This document shows positions 9,746 through 51,381 of a stretch of 60,000 nt of DNA, one piece after another. This DNA is from Bolinopsis microptera. Its lineage: Eukaryota; Ctenophora; Tentaculata; Lobata; Bolinopsidae. Positions within the stretch are counted from its first letter, which is position 1. Every line of letters begins with the position of its first letter. A model generated the notes under the pieces. It ran no database searches, was not told the origin of the DNA, and was given only the letters and a program-made list of their open reading frames with translations. A program made the translations under genes and the position numbers. Location: the NCBI RefSeq assembly GCF_026151205.1, contig NC_087077.1:6722483-6782482 (forward strand). Direction: 5' to 3'.

Positions 9746-10770
9746 CATCTCTTTTTGATTATAATGTCAGGGTACTTTATAAAGTCGAAATATAAACTGA
9801 TATCTTCATTAATAAGGAGGAAGTTTCAACAATTTCGAAATTTTTCCTTTAAAAACATTTCCTTGTATTTAGGGAAGCATATCAGTCGATCACTGACTGA
9901 ATATGCCACTTAATACTCATTCAAGTTGGCATTAAATTCATTTATAATGACATTAAACTGTCGTGGCAAAGCAGAATTTGTTGGAAATCACGAATGAGCA
10001 AAATTCTCACCTTTCGCACGTGCAAATTTTTGAGCGGACGTTGCGTGCGCATCCAATATTGAATCGCCGTAAATTTTTGCATGATGGTGTTTTATATATA
10101 GCTTGATAAGCATGCAAAGTTTCAAAGTATTTCAAAAAGAACTGTAATCACAACGGCACTCTAAAGTTGACAGAAAATGACAAAAACAGCAATTTTCAGT
10201 GATTTTAGCAATTTTCTATCAATTTGGGCGTGTCCCCACGTGTGCAACTTTTCGATTTTTAACTTTAAAACTAGCCTAATGCACAATTTATACCTATAGG
10301 AAGCAGAACTGAGCTCCACAACCCAAGGCATGGCCCAACACCAGAGAATACTAAATCGCAAAATTGACGTTTTTATAAAATAATTCTTCAAAAAAGCACA
10401 AACTTCAATGACGAATATCTTTATGAAGGAGCAAGCTAGAAAAACTTTCCGGTAGATTTTCAGAATGCTTGAACAATTATCTAAGGTGAAAATTTCCTCA
10501 GATTTTGAATACAATTACTTTTTAATGGTGTAAAATCATTTTTAAAAGTTATTACTTTGTCAAAAATCAAGTTTTAAAAACGGTTAACTTGATGACGTCA
10601 TCAAGGGGTGTTCATGACGTCAAATAATTTGTTTATACAATGTAAACTAAAGTGTAAACAATTCTTTTCAAGACCTGTGGTCGGAAATGGCTGTATCTTT
10701 TATACTTTTGAATCTATGGACAATTAAATACAGGCTACAATTGACTGGCAAAGCGTCTATCCCTGAATAT
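9746..10770. mobile_element. Inverted repeat B, left arm
   Basis: About 1.0 kb matched in inverted orientation by 11310-12355. Matching blocks include ATAATGTCAGGGTACTTTAT at the outer end and GCAAAGCGTCTATCCCTGAA at the inner end. The frames at 10161-10514 (-) and 11593-11922 (+) are mirror images of one another from the two arms. Confidence 0.8.
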
Positions 10771-11310: not shown

Positions 11311-12866
11311 ATATATTCAGGGATAGACGCTTTGCCAGTAAATTATAGCCTGTATTTAAGTGTCCATAGATTCAAAAGTATAAAAGATATAGCCATTTCC
11401 GACCACAGGTCTTGCGAATAATTATTTACACTTTAGTTTACATTGTATAAAAAAATTATTTGACGTCATGAACCCCCCCTGATGACGTCATCAAGTTAAC
11501 CGTTTTAAAAACTTGATTTTTGACAAAGTAATCACTTTTAAAATCGATTTTACACCATTAAGAATTAATTTTATTTAAGATTTGAGGGCATATTGAAGTT
11601 AGATAATTGTTTAAGCATTCTGAAAATCTACCGGAAAGTTTTTCTACCTTGCTCCTTCATAAAGATATTCGTCATTGAAGTTTGTGCTTTTTTGAAGAAT
11701 TATTTTATAAAAACGTCAATTTTGCGATTTAGTATTCTCTGGTGTTGGGCCATGCCTTGGGTTGTGGAGCTCAGTTCTGCTTTCTATAGGTATAAATTGT
11801 GCATTAGGCTAGTTTTAAAGTTGAAAATCAAAAAGTTGCACACGTGGGGACACGCCCAAATTGATAGAAAATTGCTAAAATCACTGAAAATTGCTGTTTT
11901 CGTCATTTTCTGTCAACTATAGAGTGCCGTTGTGATTACAGTTCTTTTTGAAATACTTTGAAACTTTGCATGCTTATCAAGCTATATATAAAACACCAAC
12001 ATGACAAAATTTACGGCGATTCAGTATTGGATGCGCACGCAACGACCGCTCAAAGTTTGCACGTGCGAAAGGTGAGAATTTTGCTCATTCGTGATTTCCA
12101 ACAAATTCTGCTTTGCCACGACAGTTTAATGTCATTATATATGAATTTAATGCCAACTTGAATGAGTATAAAGTGGCATATTCAGTCAGTGATCGACTGA
12201 TATGCTTACCTAAACACAAGAAAATGTTTTTAAAGGAAAAATTTCGAAATCGTTGAAACTTCTTCCTTATTGAATTTGATGAAGATATCAGTTTATATTT
12301 TGTATTTCAACTATATAAAATTAAAGTACCCTGACATTATAATCAAAAATAGATGATATTTGACCAAAACCCATAATCATGGGTAGAGTGGACCGCTGCC
12401 AGTGTCTCTCTTTCCCAAACAAAAGGAAATGATATTAATTTGATTGACCGTTCTCAAATGCAAAATGATACCGAGAATGAAATCGGTCGCTCGCTTTTCC
12501 CATTCATTTACAATTGTATAATACATTAAAAAGAACTACCCGAAGGCAGCTGTACTCGGCAATAAAGTTTCAATAAACTTCAGCTAATTCAATAAGTAAT
12601 AACTACCACCCTTACCCCGAAATACTAGGTATCGACCCGAACGCAACCCAAAGAGATTTTTACAGCATCTGATTGATGTAATCAATCTAAACTTATTACA
12701 ATTCGTAAGCCGTGAATGAATGGGAAAAGCGAGCGACCGATTTCATTCTCGGTATCATTTTGCATTTGAGAACGGTCAATCAAATTAATATCATTTCCTT
12801 TTGTTTGGGAAAGAGAGACACTGGCAGCGGTCCACTCTACCATTGATTATGGGTTTTGGTCAAATT
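11311..12866. mobile_element. Inverted repeat B, right arm, plus element M copy 2
   Basis: 11311-12355 is the reverse complement of the B left arm. 12356-12866 is the second copy of foldback M, with ends ATATTTGACC and GGTTTTGGTCAAAT. Together with 9232-10770 this makes a foldback of about 3.6 kb. Confidence 0.8.
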
Positions 12867-14577: not shown

Positions 14578-17500
14578 ATGCCATGTCGTCCCGGTGTAGT
14601 GTTATTAGTACTGGTAAAGTACTCCACACTACTACTACTACTACTGGTATGTTATTGTTATGCTGGTAGTGATGAGCAGAACAAACCAAACCTGAGGATA
14701 TTTAATGGAGACGACGCCGCTGAAGGAGAATACCCGTTTGTTGTGAGTCCCAGTACCTAAAATACATTGTTCGATGTGAGTCCCAGCAGAGGCTAGAAGG
14801 GAAGAAGATATGCTAGAAGGGTAGAAGAGAAGCTAGAAACACATTGGTTTTCTTACCACACTCTTGTTTAATACCCTGAAAAGTAGCTCTAATTATAACT
14901 GACCCTTACTCCTCAGGGTCTCCTGCTGGCTAGTGCTACATTCTCCAGCGACGGATCAGGGGGCGGTCAGAACATGTGCGGGGGCTCTATCCTGAGTGAC
15001 AGGATAATACTGACAGCAGCTCACTGCGTGGTCAAGGACACTGCTATCACTGACCAGGACGGGAGTGCTATAGACGAGCTGTATTACCCGGTGAACCTGG
15101 TGTTCCACGTGGGGGAGACACATCTGTACGAGACTGAGCAGAGTGAGCAGATACTGAACGTGGCCGGGATCATGGTCCACGAGGAGTATGATTCCTACAG
15201 TGTTGTTAATGATGTGGCATTACTTGTGCTTGATAAACCCATCACCCTGAATGATAAGGTGGCTACTATAGCGCTGCCTGATCCTGCTGATAGAGCTACC
15301 CTCTATGCAGACGGCGCTGCTATCACAGTTATTGGTATATGTAGTTATACACACTTTGAAACACTCCTCACTGTAATATATACAATATAGCACAAGAGAT
15401 GCAGGCAGGTTACAAACCTGCCCCCCCCCCCCCCCCCCCCTGTAAATGAAGGTAAACAGTAGTAACTCCACCAGGGTGGGGAACTACAGAGGATGGTACA
15501 ACTTCTGAAAAACTAAAGAAGCTGCCCTACACGATATCCTCTAAATCTGATTGTAAGACTAACTACGGTGAGGGTTTGTTAGACGGGATGATGTGTACTG
15601 GAACTGCTCCCACAGAGAGACGCGCTGACACTGGAGATTCTGGTTAGTTAACATTTAGTTAGTTACTTTAAGTTACTTTATGTTACTTTAAGTTACTTTA
15701 AGTTACTTTATGTTACTTTAAGTTACTTTAAGTTACTTTAAATTACTTTAAGTTACTTTAAGTTACTTTAAGTTACTTTATGTTACTTTAAGTTACTTTA
15801 AGTTACTTTAAATTACTTTAAGTTACTTTAAGTTACTTTAAGTTACTTTAAGTTACTTTGAGTTACTTTAAGTTACTTTAAGTTATTTTAAATTACTTTA
15901 AGTTACTTTACTATTGTTTCATGTGTTTACTTTAGAGTTACCTCTGCAGGTGGTCCACTGTTTACTAAGAAGGACGGAAAGTGGGTCCAGTTAGGCCTGG
16001 TCAGCTGGGGACCTACAGAGATTACAGCTACCTCATATGATGTCAACACTGACGTGCTCTACTTTAGGGACTGGATAGTAACTCACAAGGATAGGTTAGC
16101 AAACAACATCTTACTTCTTAGCTGTATCACATAACATCTTACTTGTTAGCTAATTCAGTTTTGAAAACTAGGTTTTAGCCAGGTTTTAACTTTTAAAAGC
16201 GACAACTTAATTCTTTGCCCATTTTCAGTGCGTTCACGGACTATGTAACTAGTTTAACAGCTACAAACTCCGCCAAGACTCTGATCCTGGAGAACCTGGC
16301 GAACTATCTTTATAAAACTATTAAAATAACTCCTGCTACTTCTACCAAACACACCAAAATAAGTTAGCTCTTATTTCCTTTTTCAACCGAATCTTATCTG
16401 TAGGTTATAAACGTACAAAACGAATATTATACATGTTATAGTGAATATGTTATAGTGAAAACAATACAATAATGTTTTCCGCCTTTCATACGATCCTAAA
16501 TTTCAAGCGTTAAGTATTAGTATTTACACGGCACTCGATTGGTTGTATTTTCTTGAACTAACTGCAGTTTATTGCCCAATAATTAAAAACACCCTGTTTA
16601 TAAAACTTCTCAATTTTCAGCTATAAAGTCCGGCACGATGAAGCCGTACGATTTCCTAATAGTGTACGATGGAGACGATCCCCTGCATAACACAATGCTA
16701 GCCCAGCTGTCTGGCACGCTGTCCGAACAGAGCTTCACTTCATCTACTGTACAGGTAGTTCTACATTATCTTAATGTGAACCTAATGTGAACCTTAGAAA
16801 TTATAAATATAAACAAGTGAACGAAAATGTAGGGTCTATTATGGTTTGGGTTAGTGGGTCCCCTATTATTCCACTATTTTAAATTTATGTGTTTGTTAGT
16901 TGTTCCTTCACCTACTGACTACTCAACAGGGGCTGACACTAGCTATTTTAACGGGTAAAGAAGGAAAGTCAGATGGGTTAATTGTGGAGTACTCTGAAGT
17001 TTCAGACGCGGGACTAACACTGAGCTCACCTGTTCAACTGGGTAATGTTCCGTTTGTGTTGACTGTTGAACAGAATTACTTAATTATACCTTGTAAATAC
17101 TAAAGTAGTAACAAGTTAGCCAGGAATTGGCCGATGAGTGATAGTCACAAATCAACGTGCGTTATTCCAGAATGATGATTATCTATCAACGCTCCTTATC
17201 ACGTGACATACGTTAACACGACCTGCTAAACCCTAACCTCTCACACAGTTCCTAACCGTCACTCTCACACAGTTCCTAACTGTCACTTTCGCACAGTTCC
17301 TAACCGTCACTCTCACACAGTTCCTAACTGTCACTCTCACACAGTTCCTAACTGTCACTCTCACACAGTTCCTAACCGTCACTCTCACACAGTTCCTAAC
17401 CGTCACTCTCACACAGTCCCTAGCCGTCACTCTCACACAGTCCCTAACCGTCACTCTCGCACAGTTCCTAACCGTCACTCTCGCACAGTTCCTAACCGTC

Positions 17501-20500
17501 ACTCTCACACAGTTCCTAACCGTCACTCTCACACAGTTCCTAACCGTCACTCTTACACAGTTCCTAACCGTCACTCTCACACAGTTCCTAACCGTCACTC
17601 TCACACAGTTCCTAACCGTCACTCTCACACAGTTCCTAACCGTCACTCTCACACAGTTCCTAACCGTCACTCTCACACAGTTCCTAACCGTCACTCTCAC
17701 ACAGTTCCTAACCGTCACTCTCACACAGTTCCTAACCGTCACTCTCACACAGTTCCTAACCGTCACTCTCACACAGTTCCTAACCGTCACTCTCAAACAG
17801 TTCCTAACCGTCACTCTCACACAGTTCCTAACCGTCATTCTCACACAGTTCCTAGCCGTCACTCTCACACAGTTCCTAACCGTCACTCTCACACAGTTCC
17901 TAACCGTCACTCTCACACAGTTCCTAACCGTCACTCTCACACAGTTCCTAACTGTCACTCTCACACAGTTCCTAACCGTCACTCTCACATAGTTCCTAAC
18001 CGTCACTCTCACACAGTTCCTAACCGTCACTCTCACACAGTTCCTAACGGTCACTCTCACACAGTTCCTAACCGTCACTCTCACACAGTCCCTAACCGTC
18101 ACTCTCACACAGTTCCTAACCATCACTCTCACACAGTTCCTAACCGTCACTCTCACACAGTCCCTAACCGTCACTCTCACACAGTTCCTAACCGTCACTC
18201 TCATGTCACACAGTTCCTAACCGTCACTCTCACACAGTCCCTAACCGTCACTCTCACACAGTTCCTAACCGTCACTCTCACACAGTTCCTAACCGTCACT
18301 CTCACACAGTTCCTAACTGTCGCGTCACTCTCACACAGTTCTTAACCGTCACTCTCACACAGTTCCTAACCGTCACTCTCACACAGTTCCTAACCGTCAC
18401 TCTCACACAGTTCCTAACCGTCACTCTCACACAGTTCCTAACCGTCACTCTCACACAGTTCATGATTACAATTCTCAGCTAGTAACTGTATTACAGGTAC
18501 ACTGCGTGTGCTGATAAGTTTTACTGTCTCAACAACAAGCTCTTCTGCGACTCCAATCAAGAGGGAAACTGTAAGTAAACAATTATAGATCTATCATCTA
18601 ACGTTATTAGTCACCAGTCACCACGCAGTTTAAATCGTCACACATTTCGAAGAATTTCAGTGGTCGTCTCCCCAGCTAGTTTCCAGCACCGTTCTCTATT
18701 AATAGTGTAGTGGATTGTTGTGAGACCGAGTGGCCGTGGGGGCGGGGGAGGAATTACCCCGCTGCACTGCAGCGGAATCAAGTATGCACTACCGCCTGGA
18801 CTTTATTTGATCAATAAAAAGGATTTTTTTACCAATCTTCTATTGACTACCTTATCAGACTTATCTGGGCGGTGGTGGTCGCAAAATATTTTCGAAAAAT
18901 TGAGAATTTCTTTTTTTTCGGCTCTAATTTTAATTTTGTAATTGAAGTTGAACAGCCAGGTGATCAATGATTCGAATCAATTATTTTGGTGTAAGTTTAA
19001 TATACTCTTACTCTCATAGAAAATTCTTCATTCTAACAGACTTATATTTGAAAATAATTAATAATTATAGGCGGTAATTCAGCCAGCAACTGATTAGTGC
19101 CTATCCTTGTCAAGTCCGATTATGTAAATTGTTTTCAATCGAACAATGAACCTGATAGGGGGGGGGGTCCAACTACATTTTTGTACACTAATTTAGCGTA
19201 CATTTGGCAAACATCTGATGGCCATGTACATTAATGGTCTTAAAAAATGTACAAAAAAACCGGAAATCCCTGGAAACGAAACAGGAAAAACAGGAAAAAA
19301 CATATTTTATACATTTTTGTGCATTTTTGAACAAATCTGGTGGCCAAACAGGAAAAAACATATTTTGTAAATTTTTGTACATGTACATTTGGCAAAAATC
19401 TGGTGGCCATGTACAAAAATGTAGTTGGACCCCCCTCCCCTCCCCTGATAATTGTTTTTCTGCAATGAACGCGTTATTTTGTCAGTTTGTGATTGTGTAA
19501 CCCACATTTCTATTGCATGACTGTTCATGTCGGCCGGTGTAGTGGTAATGGATAATGGATATGTCATTGAAATTGTTGGCGTGTGTTTGAAGGAACATAT
19601 TGTGTGATGTTAGAAGGAACATATTGTGTGATGTTTGAAGGAACATATTGTGTGATGTTTGAAGGAACATATTGTGTGAATGTTTGAAGGAACATATTGT
19701 GTGATGTTTGAAGGAACATATTGTGTGATGTTTGAAGGAACATATTGTGTGATGTTTGAAGGAACATATTGTGTGATGTTTGAAGGAACATATTGTGTGA
19801 ATGTTTGAAGGAACATATTGTGTGATGTTTGAAGGAACATATTGTGTGATGTTTGAAGGAACATATTGTGTGAATGTTTGCACATTGATAGTACGTACTG
19901 TGTGTGGCGTGTGAATGTTATCTGTGTGTGGGAATGTATATCTCTACTACTATCTCTGTTATCTGATCTCTACCTGTGTGGTTCCTGCAGGTAGAGATGG
20001 TAGCGACGAAGCAGGAGAATGCCCAACATCCTCTGGCTCTACATCAACCAGCACTGACAAGAACAGTTCTACACCCAGCTCCTTCAACACAGTCTTACTT
20101 CTTGTGTCTCTCCTTGTTAGGACAATCAATACATTATAATTTACACTCAGTTAGTAGTGGAACTGTTTCTAATGTTGGGTACTAGTATTGTGTAATAATA
20201 TGTAATAATAGAGTACTGATAAGTAATGATATGTTTTTATAGATTACTAAATTATACAAGTAGAATTATCTCATCTTCATGATTATTCCTTTAATTTCAT
20301 TAATGATTGCTTGATAGAACTTTCATTTCGTCAGATTCACGTGTAGATTATCGATTTATAGTCGTATAATTTATCAAGAGATATGTTTATATGGTTGTAA
20401 TTTTCAGATTAAGTTATACAGAGTTTTAATAATTATTTAAGTTTTTAATTCAGTAAATGTTTAGATTATTTATTTTATAAGATATGAAACTGTACATAAT

Positions 20501-21962
20501 ATATACTTTCTAAAAATGTTTTTGAAACGAAACTAGAACTACTGTTTCTACCTGTTTTTACTGTTTTTACTTCACCTAAGTAGCTGTAAGAAGCTTATTT
20601 TACCTGTATAATAGATCGCTAATTGCTGCTACGTATTACTGCGGTGGTTGTTCTGTTTGTTTCTCAAAATATACTAAAAATAGTTAGACATGCTTTAAAT
20701 TCACCCTTGTAACCTTGGGAACTGTTGTAGGGATTATCATTGTAATCCTTATCATTGTATCCTTGGGAACCATTGTAACCTTGGAAACTTTTGTAACCCT
20801 TGTAAGGATTGTCATTATAACCTTGGGAACCCTTGTAATCTTGGGAAGCCGTGCAGGGATTGTCATTGTAACCTTGGGAACCCTTGTAGGGATTGTCATT
20901 GTAACCTTGGGAACCCTTGTAGGGATTGTCATTGTAACCTTGGGAACCCTTGTAGGGATTGTCATTGTAACCTTGGGAACCCTTGTAGGGATTGTCATTG
21001 TAACCTTGGGAACCCTTGTAGGGATTGTCATTGTAACCTTGGGAACCCTTGTAGGGATTGTCATTGTAACCTTGGGAACCCTTGTAGGGATTGTCATTGT
21101 AACCTTGGGAACCCTTGTAGGGATTGTCATTGTAACCTTGGGAACCCTTGTAGGGATTGTCATTGTAACCTTTGGGAACCCTTGTAGGGATTGTCATTGT
21201 AACCTTGGGAACCCTTGTAGGGATTGTTATTGTAACATTGGGAACCCTTGTAGGGATTGTCATTGTAACCTTGGGAACCCTTGTAGGGATTGTCATTGTA
21301 ACCTTGGGAACCCTTGTAGGGATTGTCATTGTAGCCTTGGGAACCCTTGGCCTTGTAGGGATTGTCATTGTAACCTTAGGAACCCTTTACTGTACTATCA
21401 GATTACAGGATTCTCACTAAATTGACATCATATGACTAACACCACAAATAGTTGCTATAACAACACAACTGTTCCATCCTAATTAGCAGGAGCTATCTAC
21501 CTCATACCAACTAACTAGAGGATCTAAAACAAGAGAGCTCTATGAATATATATGTATATATATGGGCTCAGCTCTGCTTATATAATAGGTTTATTATTTT
21601 TCTTTCTAGAAGTTTTAGTAAAAGTTTTTTAGATGTGAAAAACAAGAAAAACTGACGAAATCATTTCTATGTTCTTCTCAGGTAAAGATAGTAGTGACGA
21701 AGTGAAAGCAAATTGTGACAAGATTAACAAAAATAACGATACTGACAATAACGATACTGACAATAACGATACTGACAATAACGATACAGACAATAACGAT
21801 ACTGACAATAACGATACTGACAATAACGGTACTGACAACAGCAATGACGAGGGTGATAGCAACAATGCTGATGAAGTTGAGGATGACAAATCAGGAGATA
21901 TCAGAATTTACCGGACTCCAGTGTTACTATGTTTGTGTTTAGTTCTACTGTTTGTTTTATAA
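14578..21962 (+). CDS. Secreted or GPI-anchored trypsin-CUB-LDLa serine protease
   Basis: Exons: 14578-14742, 14917-15334, 15475-15642, 15950-16094, 16229-16362, 16621-16754, 16930 to about 16988 (3' end uncertain), 18497-18570, then alternative last exons 19991-20139 or 21682-21962. Phases agree except at the exon 7 donor. The protein starts with a Leu-rich signal peptide (residues 1-29) and has an activation site LR/IFNG at Arg40. The S1 catalytic triad is complete: TAAHC (His91), NDVALL (Asp154) and GDSGGP (Ser250, split by an intron). The CUB domain follows (YDFLIVYDG to DGLIVEY), then an LDLa-like module and a hydrophobic tail. Position 189 of the S1 pocket is Arg and the 191-220 disulfide is missing, so specificity should not be trypsin-like. 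The exon 7-8 join fits the LDLa frame only with a weak GTACTC donor at 16989. The better donor at 17042 gives the wrong phase, and reading through stops at 17101. Confidence 0.85.
15656..15915. repeat. 10-bp minisatellite in a protease intron
   Basis: About 25 copies of AGTTACTTTA fill most of the 307-bp intron that splits the catalytic GDSG/GP motif. Confidence 0.9.
17235..18463. repeat. 24-bp minisatellite in a protease intron
   Basis: About 51 copies of a 24-bp unit containing CACACAGTTCCTAACCGTCA. The unit length is a multiple of three, which leaves a 323-codon frame open on the minus strand (an eight-residue VRVTVRNC repeat). It sits between the CUB and LDLa exons. Confidence 0.95.
19158..19445. 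mobile_element. 288-bp G/C-capped foldback in the protease intron
   Basis: The left end is a 10-base G run then TCCAACTACATTTTTGTAC. The right end is GTACAAAAATGTAGTTGGA followed by C-rich sequence. TGATA flanks both ends (19153-19157 and 19446-19450), a likely 5-bp target duplication. Confidence 0.75.
19583..19880. repeat. 24/25-bp minisatellite in a protease intron
   Basis: About 12 copies of a unit containing GAAGGAACATATTGTGTGAT. Most are 24 bp and a few are 25 bp. It ends 110 bp upstream of alternative last exon 9a. Confidence 0.9.
19991..20139 (+). CDS. Alternative last exon 9a of the protease
   Basis: The acceptor is GTTCCTGCAG. The first two bases complete a Cys codon started in the exon ending at 18570. 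The exon continues RDGSDEAGEC, the second half of an LDLa module with its acidic SDE calcium motif. A Ser/Thr-rich linker (PTSSGSTSTSTDKNSSTPSS) and a short hydrophobic tail (VLLLVSLLV then RTINTL) follow, and the stop is at 20137-20139. The tail resembles a GPI-anchor signal. Confidence 0.75.
20140..20715. other. Probable 3' UTR of isoform 9a
   Basis: AT-rich, with no gene seen. No clear AATAAA was found. Confidence 0.35.
20716..21385. repeat. 33-bp minisatellite between alternative exons
   Basis: About 18 copies of a 33-bp unit (GTAACCTTGGGAACCCTTGT then AGGGATTGTCATT), degenerate at the left edge. Because the unit is a multiple of three, several frames stay open on both strands. These are not taken as proteins. 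Confidence 0.95.
21682..21962 (+). CDS. Alternative last exon 9b of the protease
   Basis: The acceptor is GTTCTTCTCAG and the entry phase is the same as exon 9a, again completing a Cys. It continues KDSSDEVKANC (the LDLa second half), then an acidic Asn/Asp/Thr linker built from a 15-bp tandem repeat (NNDTD, about 7 units). The end is a strongly hydrophobic tail (PVLLCLCLVLLFVL) at the very C terminus, typical of a GPI signal. The stop is at 21960-21962, and a possible AATAAA lies at 22618-22623. Confidence 0.75.
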
Positions 21963-23624
21963 ACAATGCGATACTTGAAATCCTATTTAAGAATGACAAC
22001 AAATTTTAAATCAAAAGCAGTTTTATTTTTAAAGGTTTTATTCAGTTTCTAATTTGTTTGAAATTTATTATAATTGGTAAAGAACTAAAGAGTTTGTGAT
22101 TTGATAGCAGAAGTTTCTACTGTTCTATTGTATAAATGTATGTGTAGATATTTATTTTAAATCCTTCGATTTTAGCCTAAATTTTGTAATATTATTTGCT
22201 TTAAAATATAACACGCCAAGGGCACACCGATTTATTGAAGGCGAACAATTGTATATCCAACTTCAAAGTATATCTGAAACGCATATTAGCGATTCAAATC
22301 TTTTCATTAAGTTTGATATTAGTATTTGATGAAATGTGAACAATATTCACGGAATAGTTTGTTACATTCCTCATCATAATGATAGAAGAATAGCCAGTAG
22401 TAGAATTAAACACATGAATTATTGAAGCAAATTGTTGGTGATACAGCCAGATCTTATAGAGATAACCTCCCATCGCTCTTAAAATAAGTGAGCTTTCAAT
22501 GGTGTTCAAATAAACCAGCCTAATTTCAAGATAGTAGAACATATATTAGGAACACTTTTGCAGTGACTGTAACCGATTGTAAAATCTCTAAAATCTATTT
22601 GAGACCTTTGAATATACAATAAAGCATTTCCAAAGGTACGAATTAATGAAAACAAAGGACGATGTTGAAAGTATCATGATTAACGTGTATTTTCTCCTTT
22701 GAAAACAGCAAAGCATGTGCTCTAAGCAGCGAGTAAGGTAGATTGGTACATAATGTGTACTAAATATGTAATCAAACAGAGATTATTGTAAAAACATAGC
22801 TAGAAATCTAACAAATATAAAGGAACACGTACAGGCAATCCCGTCCACAAATATTATTTACACTGCACTCACCAGGTAAATATTATTTACACTGCACTCA
22901 CCAGGCAAGCTAACAGATCATTAGCTGACCCAGTGCACTTTTTCAAATATCAAATTATACCTTCTTTTTGCATGCGAAATCAAATGTTTATGAACTTTAC
23001 AAATTGGTATGTTAACAAAACGAAAGGAGATGTCAACAAAAGTATAAATTTTCTAGGGGGAAAGCCAGGAGTTTACAGGTTACCATGGTTACCTAGCTTT
23101 CCAGACTATTGTGAGTAATCAGTATCAAGTATGATCGCACAATTATTATTTCTAGGATACATAATTTTCAAATAGCAATTTAAATAAATTTAAATAGCTT
23201 AAATAAATACTTATTCATATCAGTTTATTTAATGCATCGAAAAGTCAGTTTCAGTGTAGAGAAGTAATGCCAACTGAGTGGTAGTAAGAATTGTAATCGC
23301 TATCAGCCAGTGAGTAATTAACCAGCCGGTTAAAGAGCCAGTAACCAGCCGGTAAAAGAGCCAGTAACCAGCTATATTGGTGACCACTACAACACAGCTT
23401 TGTCCAGCGAAGGGTAAGTAAGATTGAACTCTAGCAGGACGTGAACGTCAGGGGTAGAAATAGAGTCCAGGTTTCCTAAACGTAGAAACTATCGACCTCT
23501 GAACCCTGAAGTGGGAGACGGTGAACATTTTATAATAGAGACAATAAAACAGTCAACGTTAATACTTAGTACTTAATCATGTTCATTGTTTATACTATTA
23601 AGTAATAGCATGACAAGTCCGTGA
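21963..23624. other. No gene seen
   Basis: AT-rich, probably starting with the protease 3' UTR. A 32-bp direct duplication lies at about 22848-22910 (ATTATTTACACTGCACTCAC), and a short duplicated CCAGCCGGT block lies at about 23320-23370. Confidence 0.4.
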
Positions 23625-48800: not shown

Positions 48801-49085
48801 GACTTTCTGTTGCAATCGTAAACTGTTATTAACGTGCGGCGCGAGAACTGGGTCATAAAAGAATACTTTTCGACCAGCAAAATATCACGTTGGTTTTTAA
48901 TTAAGCTAAGCGCGCAATTTAAGTTTTTTAGTTTTTCAACGGTTCATTAGGTGACAGTGAAATCTTAATTCGACTTCTTCGATATCACTGATTGTAAGAC
49001 CTTGATTCCCCATATATTTCATTGAAGTTCAGCCAATTACAATTGACCAGTCAGCTGACTAACTTTTACTGTCTATCATAGGATT
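45891..49085. other. No gene recognised; upstream region of SIRT1
   Basis: Short frames at 46549-46770 (+) and 46720-46914 (-) have no family match known to me. The latter looks somewhat coding-like. A pair of related segments at about 47618-47660 and 47798-47840 (AAACTACGTCATA..TTAGTGT) is a small duplication. An acceptor-like TGTCTATCATAG just before the SIRT1 start suggests a 5' UTR intron. Confidence 0.4.
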
Positions 49086-51381
49086 ATGACCGAGAGGAGT
49101 GTGAACGAGATTACCTCTGACACGGACGATGTGTCCTATGAAATAAAACGAGCCCGAATAGGAACATCATCTCCGACAGACGACAAGCCGGCAAATGTGT
49201 CCATAGACTCGAATAAAGTTTCGGTTTACAGTAACGGGAACAGCGAGGCTACAGAGAGCACGTGCTGTGAATCAAACAATGTTAGTTCGGACGACTGTAA
49301 GGCTGAGTGTAATGGGGGAAGTAATGGTGTAGGTAGTCCTCCTCCACCCCAACCCACCCTTCCTATCGTCAATCCTGTGGTCTGGGTACATGAGCAGATA
49401 GAGAATGGTATTAACCCCATGTCCGTTCTGATCAATATCTTGCCGCCAAACGTTGCTCTCCCAGAGGGTCTTAGTGATCTGACTCTGTGGCGGATTGTGA
49501 TAGAGATATTATCAGACATGCCCAAGAGAACCAAGTTACCCCACATAAACACCCTTCATGACGTCATATCCCTCCTCAAATCCTGTCGGAATATTGTGGT
49601 AGTCAGTGGCGCTGGAATCTCTGTCTCTTGTGGTATTCCTGACTTCAGGTCTAAAGATGGTGTTTACGCCCGGTTAGCCGTGGACTACCCAGACCTACCA
49701 AATCCACAAGCCATGTTTGATATCCAGTATTTCGCTCTCAACCCTAAACCCTTCTTCAAGTTTGCATCTGAAATCTGGCCCGGCCAGTTCTCGCCCTCTC
49801 CCAGCCACCACTTCATAAAGCAGATGGAGGAACGACAGTGTTTGCTCCGGAATTACACTCAGAATATTGACACTCTGGAGAAAGTTTGTGGTATACGGAA
49901 TGTAGTTCAATGTCACGGTTCATTCGCTACAGCAACGTGTAGAACGTGCGGTAACAAGGTGGACTCTGATACAATCAAGGAGGATATCATGAAACAAATT
50001 ATTCCTGTCTGTAAGAGGTAAGCTTTAAAAGTACGTCGTACACTTTTGTAAACTGACTTGTAAAAAACATCCTTTTCGGTTTTTTATTATCGTAGAACGA
50101 ATTATTCTTCCTTGATCGATAATACTAGAAGCAGCCTTCTTCTGATTTTCGGTCTATTTTTAACTTGATAACATGTTTGATGTGCGACATATTTAACATT
50201 TTTAATATAATATTCAATTTTAGTTATGCAACTATAACATAATAACACAGCTTGATGAAGTGGATATTTTTTCAGACTGTAATATTAACATAATCGCCAC
50301 ATTAGAAATATCAAGCATAGGCGTTGATGTGATTTTAGTTTGCCAACAATCAGAAAAAATGTACAAAAAGCTGGTGGCGTATTTTAGCAGGTCCAATAAT
50401 CCATACTCATCAACAAACAAAAAACTTCAGATGTCCAGAACCTACTCCAGCTTCAATAATGAAACCGGATATCGTTTTCTTTGGAGAAGGATTACCGAAT
50501 GAGTTCCATCACGCCATTGAAGCGGACAGATTGAAAGCCGATTTGGTTATTGTGATGGGTTCCTCGTTGAAGGTGAAACCAGTGGCGCATATTCCTAACC
50601 TGGTGCCGCCGGACATTCCACAGGTGATGAGAATTGAGAAGCTACAGCTTTTAAAATCCTTATTTGGGTTATTTTACAGAATTGAATCGGACGGTCATAC
50701 AATTTCTAATCCCCATAATATCTTCGCATTAATTGTTGCCCACTAACATTTAAATCCTGGGCTGTGGTTGTGGACAGTCTCAAGTTAAAAACCTTTAAAC
50801 ACAACAACTTTCTTCAGATTCTTATCAACAGAGAGCCTCTACCCCATCTAAATTTCGACGTGGAACTGCTTGGCGACTGCGATATCATTGTCAACGAGCT
50901 GTGTTCCAGATTAGAGTGGACTCTTCCCAACACACCTACCTCAACTACAGACGACAAAATGGACGGCACGGAGAGGTTTGTCTGCACGCCGCCCGCCCGC
51001 TACATCTTCCCTGGCGCTGAAGTGCAGGATGACTGCTCGCAGGTAGACAGTGCATCAGATGAAGGCTCCGAGAGCCAGTCAGTCGTTACAACTGAGGACG
51101 AAGAGTCCAACACAGACAATTACGTAGCCCAGATGCGGTATGTCATGGGTTGTGATTCAAGGACATACTCCGAAAACCCGGGCCCTTCACGCATTTCCCA
51201 AGAAGTGTCAGAATATGGCAGCGAGCGATGGGAGTGTGAGAGTGTGAGTAATGTGAGCATTGCCGCGCAAATGGGCGACAGTAGGGAGCCCAGCGTGGAC
51301 AATGTATCAATATGCAGCGAGGTTGAGGACATGGAGAGTAATGTGAGCACAACGCCTCAACCTGCGGACAACATGAGTTGA
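49086..51381 (+). CDS. SIRT1: NAD-dependent protein deacetylase sirtuin-1
   Basis: Exons 49086-50017, 50431-50623 and 50818-51381 encode 562 residues with matching phases (2, 0) and AG/GT borders. An acidic N terminus with a basic KRAR (21-24) is followed by the STAC-type helical region ending [16 protein letters not shown]. The Rossmann NAD-binding core has [15 protein letters not shown] (from 175), [10 protein letters not shown] and the catalytic CHGS (His277). A zinc site is formed by Cys285, Cys288, Cys309 and Cys312, and GSSLKV and [10 protein letters not shown] are present. Near residues 428-444, [17 protein letters not shown] matches the C-terminal ESA segment that activates the SIRT1 core. 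The protein is shorter than human SIRT1 (747), mainly because the linker before this segment is about 20 residues. It should deacetylate histones and transcription factors in the nucleus. A possible AATAAA is at 51802-51807. Confidence 0.95.

Follow-up and report, generated by a model that had tools for sequence, protein, structure and literature searches.

The window, the whole stretch of DNA analysed here, comprises 60,000 nucleotides of the genome of the comb jelly Bolinopsis microptera (C6:6722483-6782482). On its + strand lies an S1-protease gene with exons from 14578 onwards and GT-AG introns. Exon 1 (14578..14742) carries the start codon and a hydrophobic signal-like N-terminus and begins the protease domain, its open frame running to the donor GTGAGT. 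The protease continues through exon 2 (14917..15334), with the motifs TAAHC (His) and NDVALL (Asp), a Pfam Trypsin match on the model and a genome match, and through exon 3 (15475..15642) as far as GDSG (Ser), and reaches its C-terminal end in exon 4 (15950..16094). A middle domain lacking a Pfam match follows in exon 5 (16229..16362), matched in the paralogues L039 and L040, and in exon 6 (16621..16754), matched in L039, L040 and L041. It ends in exon 7 (16930..17041; 112 nt), which then encodes TELTCSTG, containing the first cysteine of an LDLa module, in a different frame. Exon 8 (18497..18570), with counterparts in L039 and L040, encodes the second to fourth cysteines of the LDLa and ends with the T of the fifth. 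Two terminal exons are found on the same strand beyond it. Both encode LDLa Cys 5-6, a hydrophobic end and a stop codon, with a Ser/Thr-rich linker in exon 9a (19991..20139), and an NNDTD stalk with N-x-S/T sites and an acidic linker in exon 9b (21682..21962). The first canonical poly(A) signals 3' of exon 9b lie within 22405..22623 (ATTAAA at 22405, AATAAA at 22509 and 22618).

Tandem repeats are prominent in this region. Some 50 copies of a 24-bp unit, arranged in tandem, make up most of intron 7 (17238-18461), and long arrays of 10, 24 and 33 bp occupy introns 3 and 8 and the gap between 9a and 9b as well. Elsewhere in the window there is a Sir2-family (sirtuin) gene of at least two exons at 49059-50746 (Pfam SIR2, E 4.3e-44 and 2.3e-13). 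Two near-identical open frames lie in opposite orientation at 10161-10514 (-) and 11569-11922 (+), and could be the inverted repeat of a mobile element.

Assignment to the S1 proteases rests on a profile search of the gene model, which matched PF00089 (Trypsin) above the cut-off with E 2.5e-45 using a query that contained one extra mistyped V. The catalytic motifs TAAHC, NDVALL and GDSGGP are all present in the model, and exons 1-6 are open. We took the pocket Asp together with the Cys191-Cys220 pair as the mark of trypsin specificity. Neither the label of a trypsin nor its pocket fits the window protein, where RRADTGDSGGP lies opposite KDSCQGDSGGP in an alignment to crayfish trypsin 2f91. The S1 pocket (15475-16094) is unusual across the family, with RRADTGDSGG in the window gene and KHAAGGDSG, EHAAGGDSG and KHSAIGDSG among the paralogues L039, L040 and L041; the trypsin Asp and Cys near the active Ser are absent from all four. 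From these sequences, the substrate preference of the family should be unlike that of trypsin. A CUB label for the middle region was considered and dropped because Pfam gives no CUB match at E values up to 10 in the window or in three paralogue regions.

The junction between exon 8 and the terminal exons lies within a codon. The last base of exon 8 is the T of a cysteine codon, followed by the donor at 18570 (act|GTAAGT). Exon 9a begins with GT at 19991 behind the acceptor TTCCTGCAG, restoring the cysteine to give C-RDGSDEAGEC. Exon 9b begins with GT at 21682 behind TTCTTCTCAG, and the restored cysteine is followed by the corresponding half-module as C-KDSSDEVKANC. Both acceptors are good and in the same phase, and the stalk, hydrophobic end and stop codon are supplied separately by each exon. 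One donor thus fits two terminal exons, the layout of alternative last exons, and 9a and 9b are mutually exclusive because each carries its own stop. This much had been described in an earlier note on this DNA, and the sequences agree with it: an exon at 18497-18570 that halts inside a Cys codon in the middle of the LDLa; two exons beginning GT that rebuild the Cys and bring an SDE-containing half-module; Ser/Thr-rich and NNDTD linkers with hydrophobic tails, both present as described; and the impossibility of using both exons in one protein, which the stop in 9a enforces.

The two tails differ considerably. Counted from the cysteine onward, that of 9a has 49 residues, one N-x-S/T site and a net charge of -2, and that of 9b has 93 residues, seven such sites and a net charge of -19. 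The NNDTD repeats of 9b correspond to a 15-bp array (21732-21838). The hydrophobic end of 9a is the less regular of the two, with an arginine six residues before the stop.

The chance level of this pattern was estimated in two scans, both with rules devised after the exons were known. The first sought AG|GY acceptors that restore a Cys and lead into an open, hydrophobic-ended tail that holds a second Cys and three or more acidic residues. It ran over 638,612 strand-bases, with overlapping cuts counted and 12 window-gene cuts excluded beforehand, and of the 980 candidate sites there it returned seven rows. These reduce to five distinct places, namely 9a, 9b and one last exon in each of L039, L040 and L041, three of the rows being cuts of one paralogue on C8. 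The second scan covered the window together with 13 loci, each 10 kb long (562 sites); a crude GPI rule was passed at 40/562, a half-LDLa rule at 17/562, and both together at 5/562, which are the same five exons. The combination of half-LDLa and anchor-type tail in 9a and 9b is above chance. A GPI-anchored protein is expected to have small omega residues, a spacer, a hydrophobic C-terminus and no cytoplasmic tail; the crude rule is passed by 9a, 9b and the three paralogue exons, but since 40 of the 562 sites pass overall, this lends little weight to 9a by itself.

A genome search with the gene model gave 56 exon-level matches, its own exons counted. We compared the LDLa ends in L039 (C5), L040 (C3), and L041 with its tandem copy L060 (C8), the genes being read only at these ends, in 10 kb each. 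In all four an intron interrupts the codon of the fifth Cys behind its T, and a single last exon of the anchor type comes next. The exon 7/8 boundary is common to the window gene, L039 and L040; in L041 and L060 Cys 1-4 are encoded in one exon. Judged on these sequences, a split LDLa followed by a putative anchor-bearing last exon is the layout of this protease family. A single such exon is present in 4/4 relatives with the layout (10 kb read), and two only in the window gene. The last exon of L060 (C8:11338501-11348500, - strand) is frame-broken after NDASDEV; it came from a protein search and was not picked up by the scan. In L043, also a relative, there is a half resembling LDLa (RDASDEDEGC), with no nearby stop and no scan match.

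Exon 9b has a recognizable relative within this family, SDEVKANC being common to it and the last exon of L039. No second copy of 9a was found in the genome, either with the model or with a DNA search that ignores simple repeats and very common words and matched 9a only. Around the acceptor, 21/24 nt are identical between 9a and 9b, and beyond it we see no clear match between their coding tails. Exon duplication, as proposed in the earlier note, is plausible from the acceptor region. The best explanation of these sequences is that 9b is akin to the paralogue last exon, and that 9a is probably an additional, diverged exon. Given the absence of a relative in the genome and its irregular hydrophobic end, 9a could be a young or a decaying exon.

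The distribution of poly(A) signals bears on how the two exons might be used. Counting over 1.5 kb, the first AATAAA or ATTAAA after the last exon lies at +442 for 9b, +385 for L039, +75 for L040 and +38 for L041. There is none in the 1.5 kb after 9a, where a search for six variant signals gave only AGTAAA (+312, +1477) and AATATA (+358, +528, +1405). The alternative polyadenylation suggested in the earlier note is thus unsupported, as no AATAAA or ATTAAA follows 9a before 22405. Between 18814 and 22404 the sense strand has 0 such signals and the antisense strand 12 outside repeats. At 3.6 kb, it is the second longest interval without such a signal that the window has on its + strand. Between the end of exon 8 and the stop of 9b, 1 signal lies outside repeats, where 2,000 simulations gave a mean of 4.8 and 4.85% of them had this number or fewer; the comparison was made post hoc, so that depletion of signals across this interval is no more than suggestive. 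The pattern could reflect acceptor choice combined with a common poly(A) site, a non-canonical site behind 9a, or a 9a that is not used.

The last of these would mean that 9b alone is the working last exon, and that 9a is a leftover or a new copy of half an exon that is seldom or never spliced. The lack of a canonical signal after 9a speaks for this reading, as do the paralogue match of 9b and the failure to find a relative of 9a elsewhere in the genome. Nevertheless 9a retains a good acceptor, the correct phase, the SDE motif, both Cys, an open frame and a hydrophobic end, and we regard its disuse as unlikely, though worth keeping in mind.

We turn now to the LDLa module itself, which the earlier note had described as lacking one of its six Cys. 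This does not hold, for when the 3' end of exon 7 is read in the LDLa frame it gives TELTCSTG, and the first Cys is present; it appeared to be missing because the wrong frame of exon 7 was followed. In the paralogues L039 and L040 the segments aligned with TELTCSTG are NDLVCPSG and RKLQCSEG. Read in this way, both the 9a and the 9b forms have six Cys and the SDE motif. We had considered that Cys 1 might come from a hidden exon in the interval from exon 7 to exon 8, which is unnecessary once the end of exon 7 is read in the frame of the paralogues. Without Cys 1 the a form scores 14.4 bits against Pfam LDLa and the b piece has no match; with Cys 1 the scores are 21.4 bits (E 0.0003) for a and 22.6 bits (E 0.00012) for b, both under the cut-off of 24.1. 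The modules of L039 (21.1 bits) and L040 (21.2 bits) are likewise below 24.1, and that of L041 (26.5) passes.

The frame of exon 7 requires explanation. Its first part, in the protease frame, reads GLTLAILTG...SEVSDAG, and its 3' end is in the LDLa frame. The exon ends one base into a codon, compared with two bases in L039 and L040, and its 112 nt compare with 113 nt in L039 and 116 nt in L040. By this comparison the window exon 7 is one nucleotide out of frame relative to the paralogues, placing the LDLa, as assembled, out of frame with the protease. With the donor at 17041, translation of 9a would then proceed in a different frame until a later stop codon, and that of 9b would soon terminate. 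An alternative donor at 17051, which would keep the LDLa in frame, was rejected; the site is poor (tcc|GTTTGT), and it is 17041 that corresponds to the ends of exon 7 in L039 and L040.

If the frame break is real, the gene could be a recent pseudogene that makes neither form. The length of exon 7 and the different frames of its two halves would be accounted for, and lesions are known in the family, as in the broken last exon of the tandem copy on C8. However, the gene otherwise appears intact in exons 1-6, exon 8 and both last exons, as well as in its catalytic motifs and splice sites. The assembly of B. microptera was built with wtdbg and then polished by pilon with Illumina reads (PMC10232365), and in a long-read assembly of this type a leftover one-base error is plausible. 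We infer that such an error is the more likely cause of the frame break, and that a dead gene is improbable.

Use of 9a alone, with 9b as the remnant of a lost gene copy downstream, would be in keeping with the proximal position of 9a and the tandem copies of the family on C8, but it is very improbable, as exons 1-8 leave no trace between 9a and 9b, and 9b is wholly open with the stronger hydrophobic end and poly(A) signals downstream. A separate gene copy that owns 9b was rejected on the same absence. When the model of the 9a form was compared with the rest of the window only two chance-level matches were obtained (E 5.8 and 8.7), none of them between 9a and 9b, and 9b therefore has no other visible gene.

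The reading that we prefer is that of a single gene for a secreted S1 protease in which exon 8 would be joined to either 9a or 9b, giving two surface forms on different stalks; we put its probability at roughly 0.58. Two surface forms were also the proposal of the earlier note, and remain the best reading since the paralogues share the layout, without the polyadenylation that had been attached to it. The final splicing step would select one of the two terminal exons. With 9a attached to exon 8, the protease would stand on a short stalk rich in Ser and Thr; with 9b, the stalk would be longer and strongly acidic and would carry several sites for N-glycosylation. Both tails end in a short hydrophobic segment with no cytoplasmic part, predicted to be of the type that is exchanged for a GPI anchor. 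The choice would probably be made at the acceptor, with either a poly(A) site shared beyond 9b or a non-canonical site after 9a.

A more specific version of this mechanism is put forward only tentatively. An old intron within the LDLa would allow the gene to exchange half a disulfide module together with the stalk and the GPI signal, so presenting the protease on two chemically different stalks. The switch would lie in the choice of acceptor, both forms using the same poly(A) site, and canonical sense signals would have been kept out of the interval from exon 8 to that site.

Several known systems can be compared with this arrangement. Prostasin and testisin are GPI-anchored S1 proteases that combine a trypsin fold with a C-terminal anchor signal, and the window protein is likewise a trypsin-fold protease with a predicted C-terminal signal of the anchor type. 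Unlike them it lacks the trypsin pocket Asp, and proteases of the prostasin and testisin type are not known to have an LDLa module or comparable alternative last exons. In acetylcholinesterase one catalytic domain is combined with alternative C-terminal exons that fix the type of tether, and the H and T tails are unrelated and provide different tethers. In contrast, the exchanged exon of the window gene completes a disulfide module as well.

In human uPAR (PLAUR), exons 7 and 7b are alternative terminal exons giving one GPI-linked and one soluble form (PMC2724484). As in the window gene, two alternative terminal exons belong to one extracellular protein; in uPAR the choice alters the C-terminus and the anchor. 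The window gene differs in that both its ends look anchored, the starts of its terminal exons look related (21/24 nt), and half a disulfide module is exchanged. Alternative splicing is similarly the source of a second form in uromodulin, where AS-UMOD lacks the GPI anchor (PMC12165797); unlike the window gene, the AS-UMOD form drops the anchor, and no half-module swap was seen.

Alternative last exons that alter anchoring are already known; the apparent anchoring of both forms, the seemingly related exon starts and the exchange of a half-module are what differ. A search of the open-access literature found no paper on a comb-jelly gene of this kind. The B. microptera genome was annotated with Iso-Seq and RNA-seq (PMC10232365). 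If transcripts confirm the two forms, an extra terminal exon would have been tolerated because an old intron of fixed phase sits inside a domain, and the single-exon paralogues provide a ready comparison for the two-exon window gene. In the cases compared, the change of last exon or splicing toggles between anchored and soluble protein. In the window gene, from a lineage close to the root of the animals, the anchor seems to be retained whichever exon is chosen, and it is the stalk and half of a module that change.
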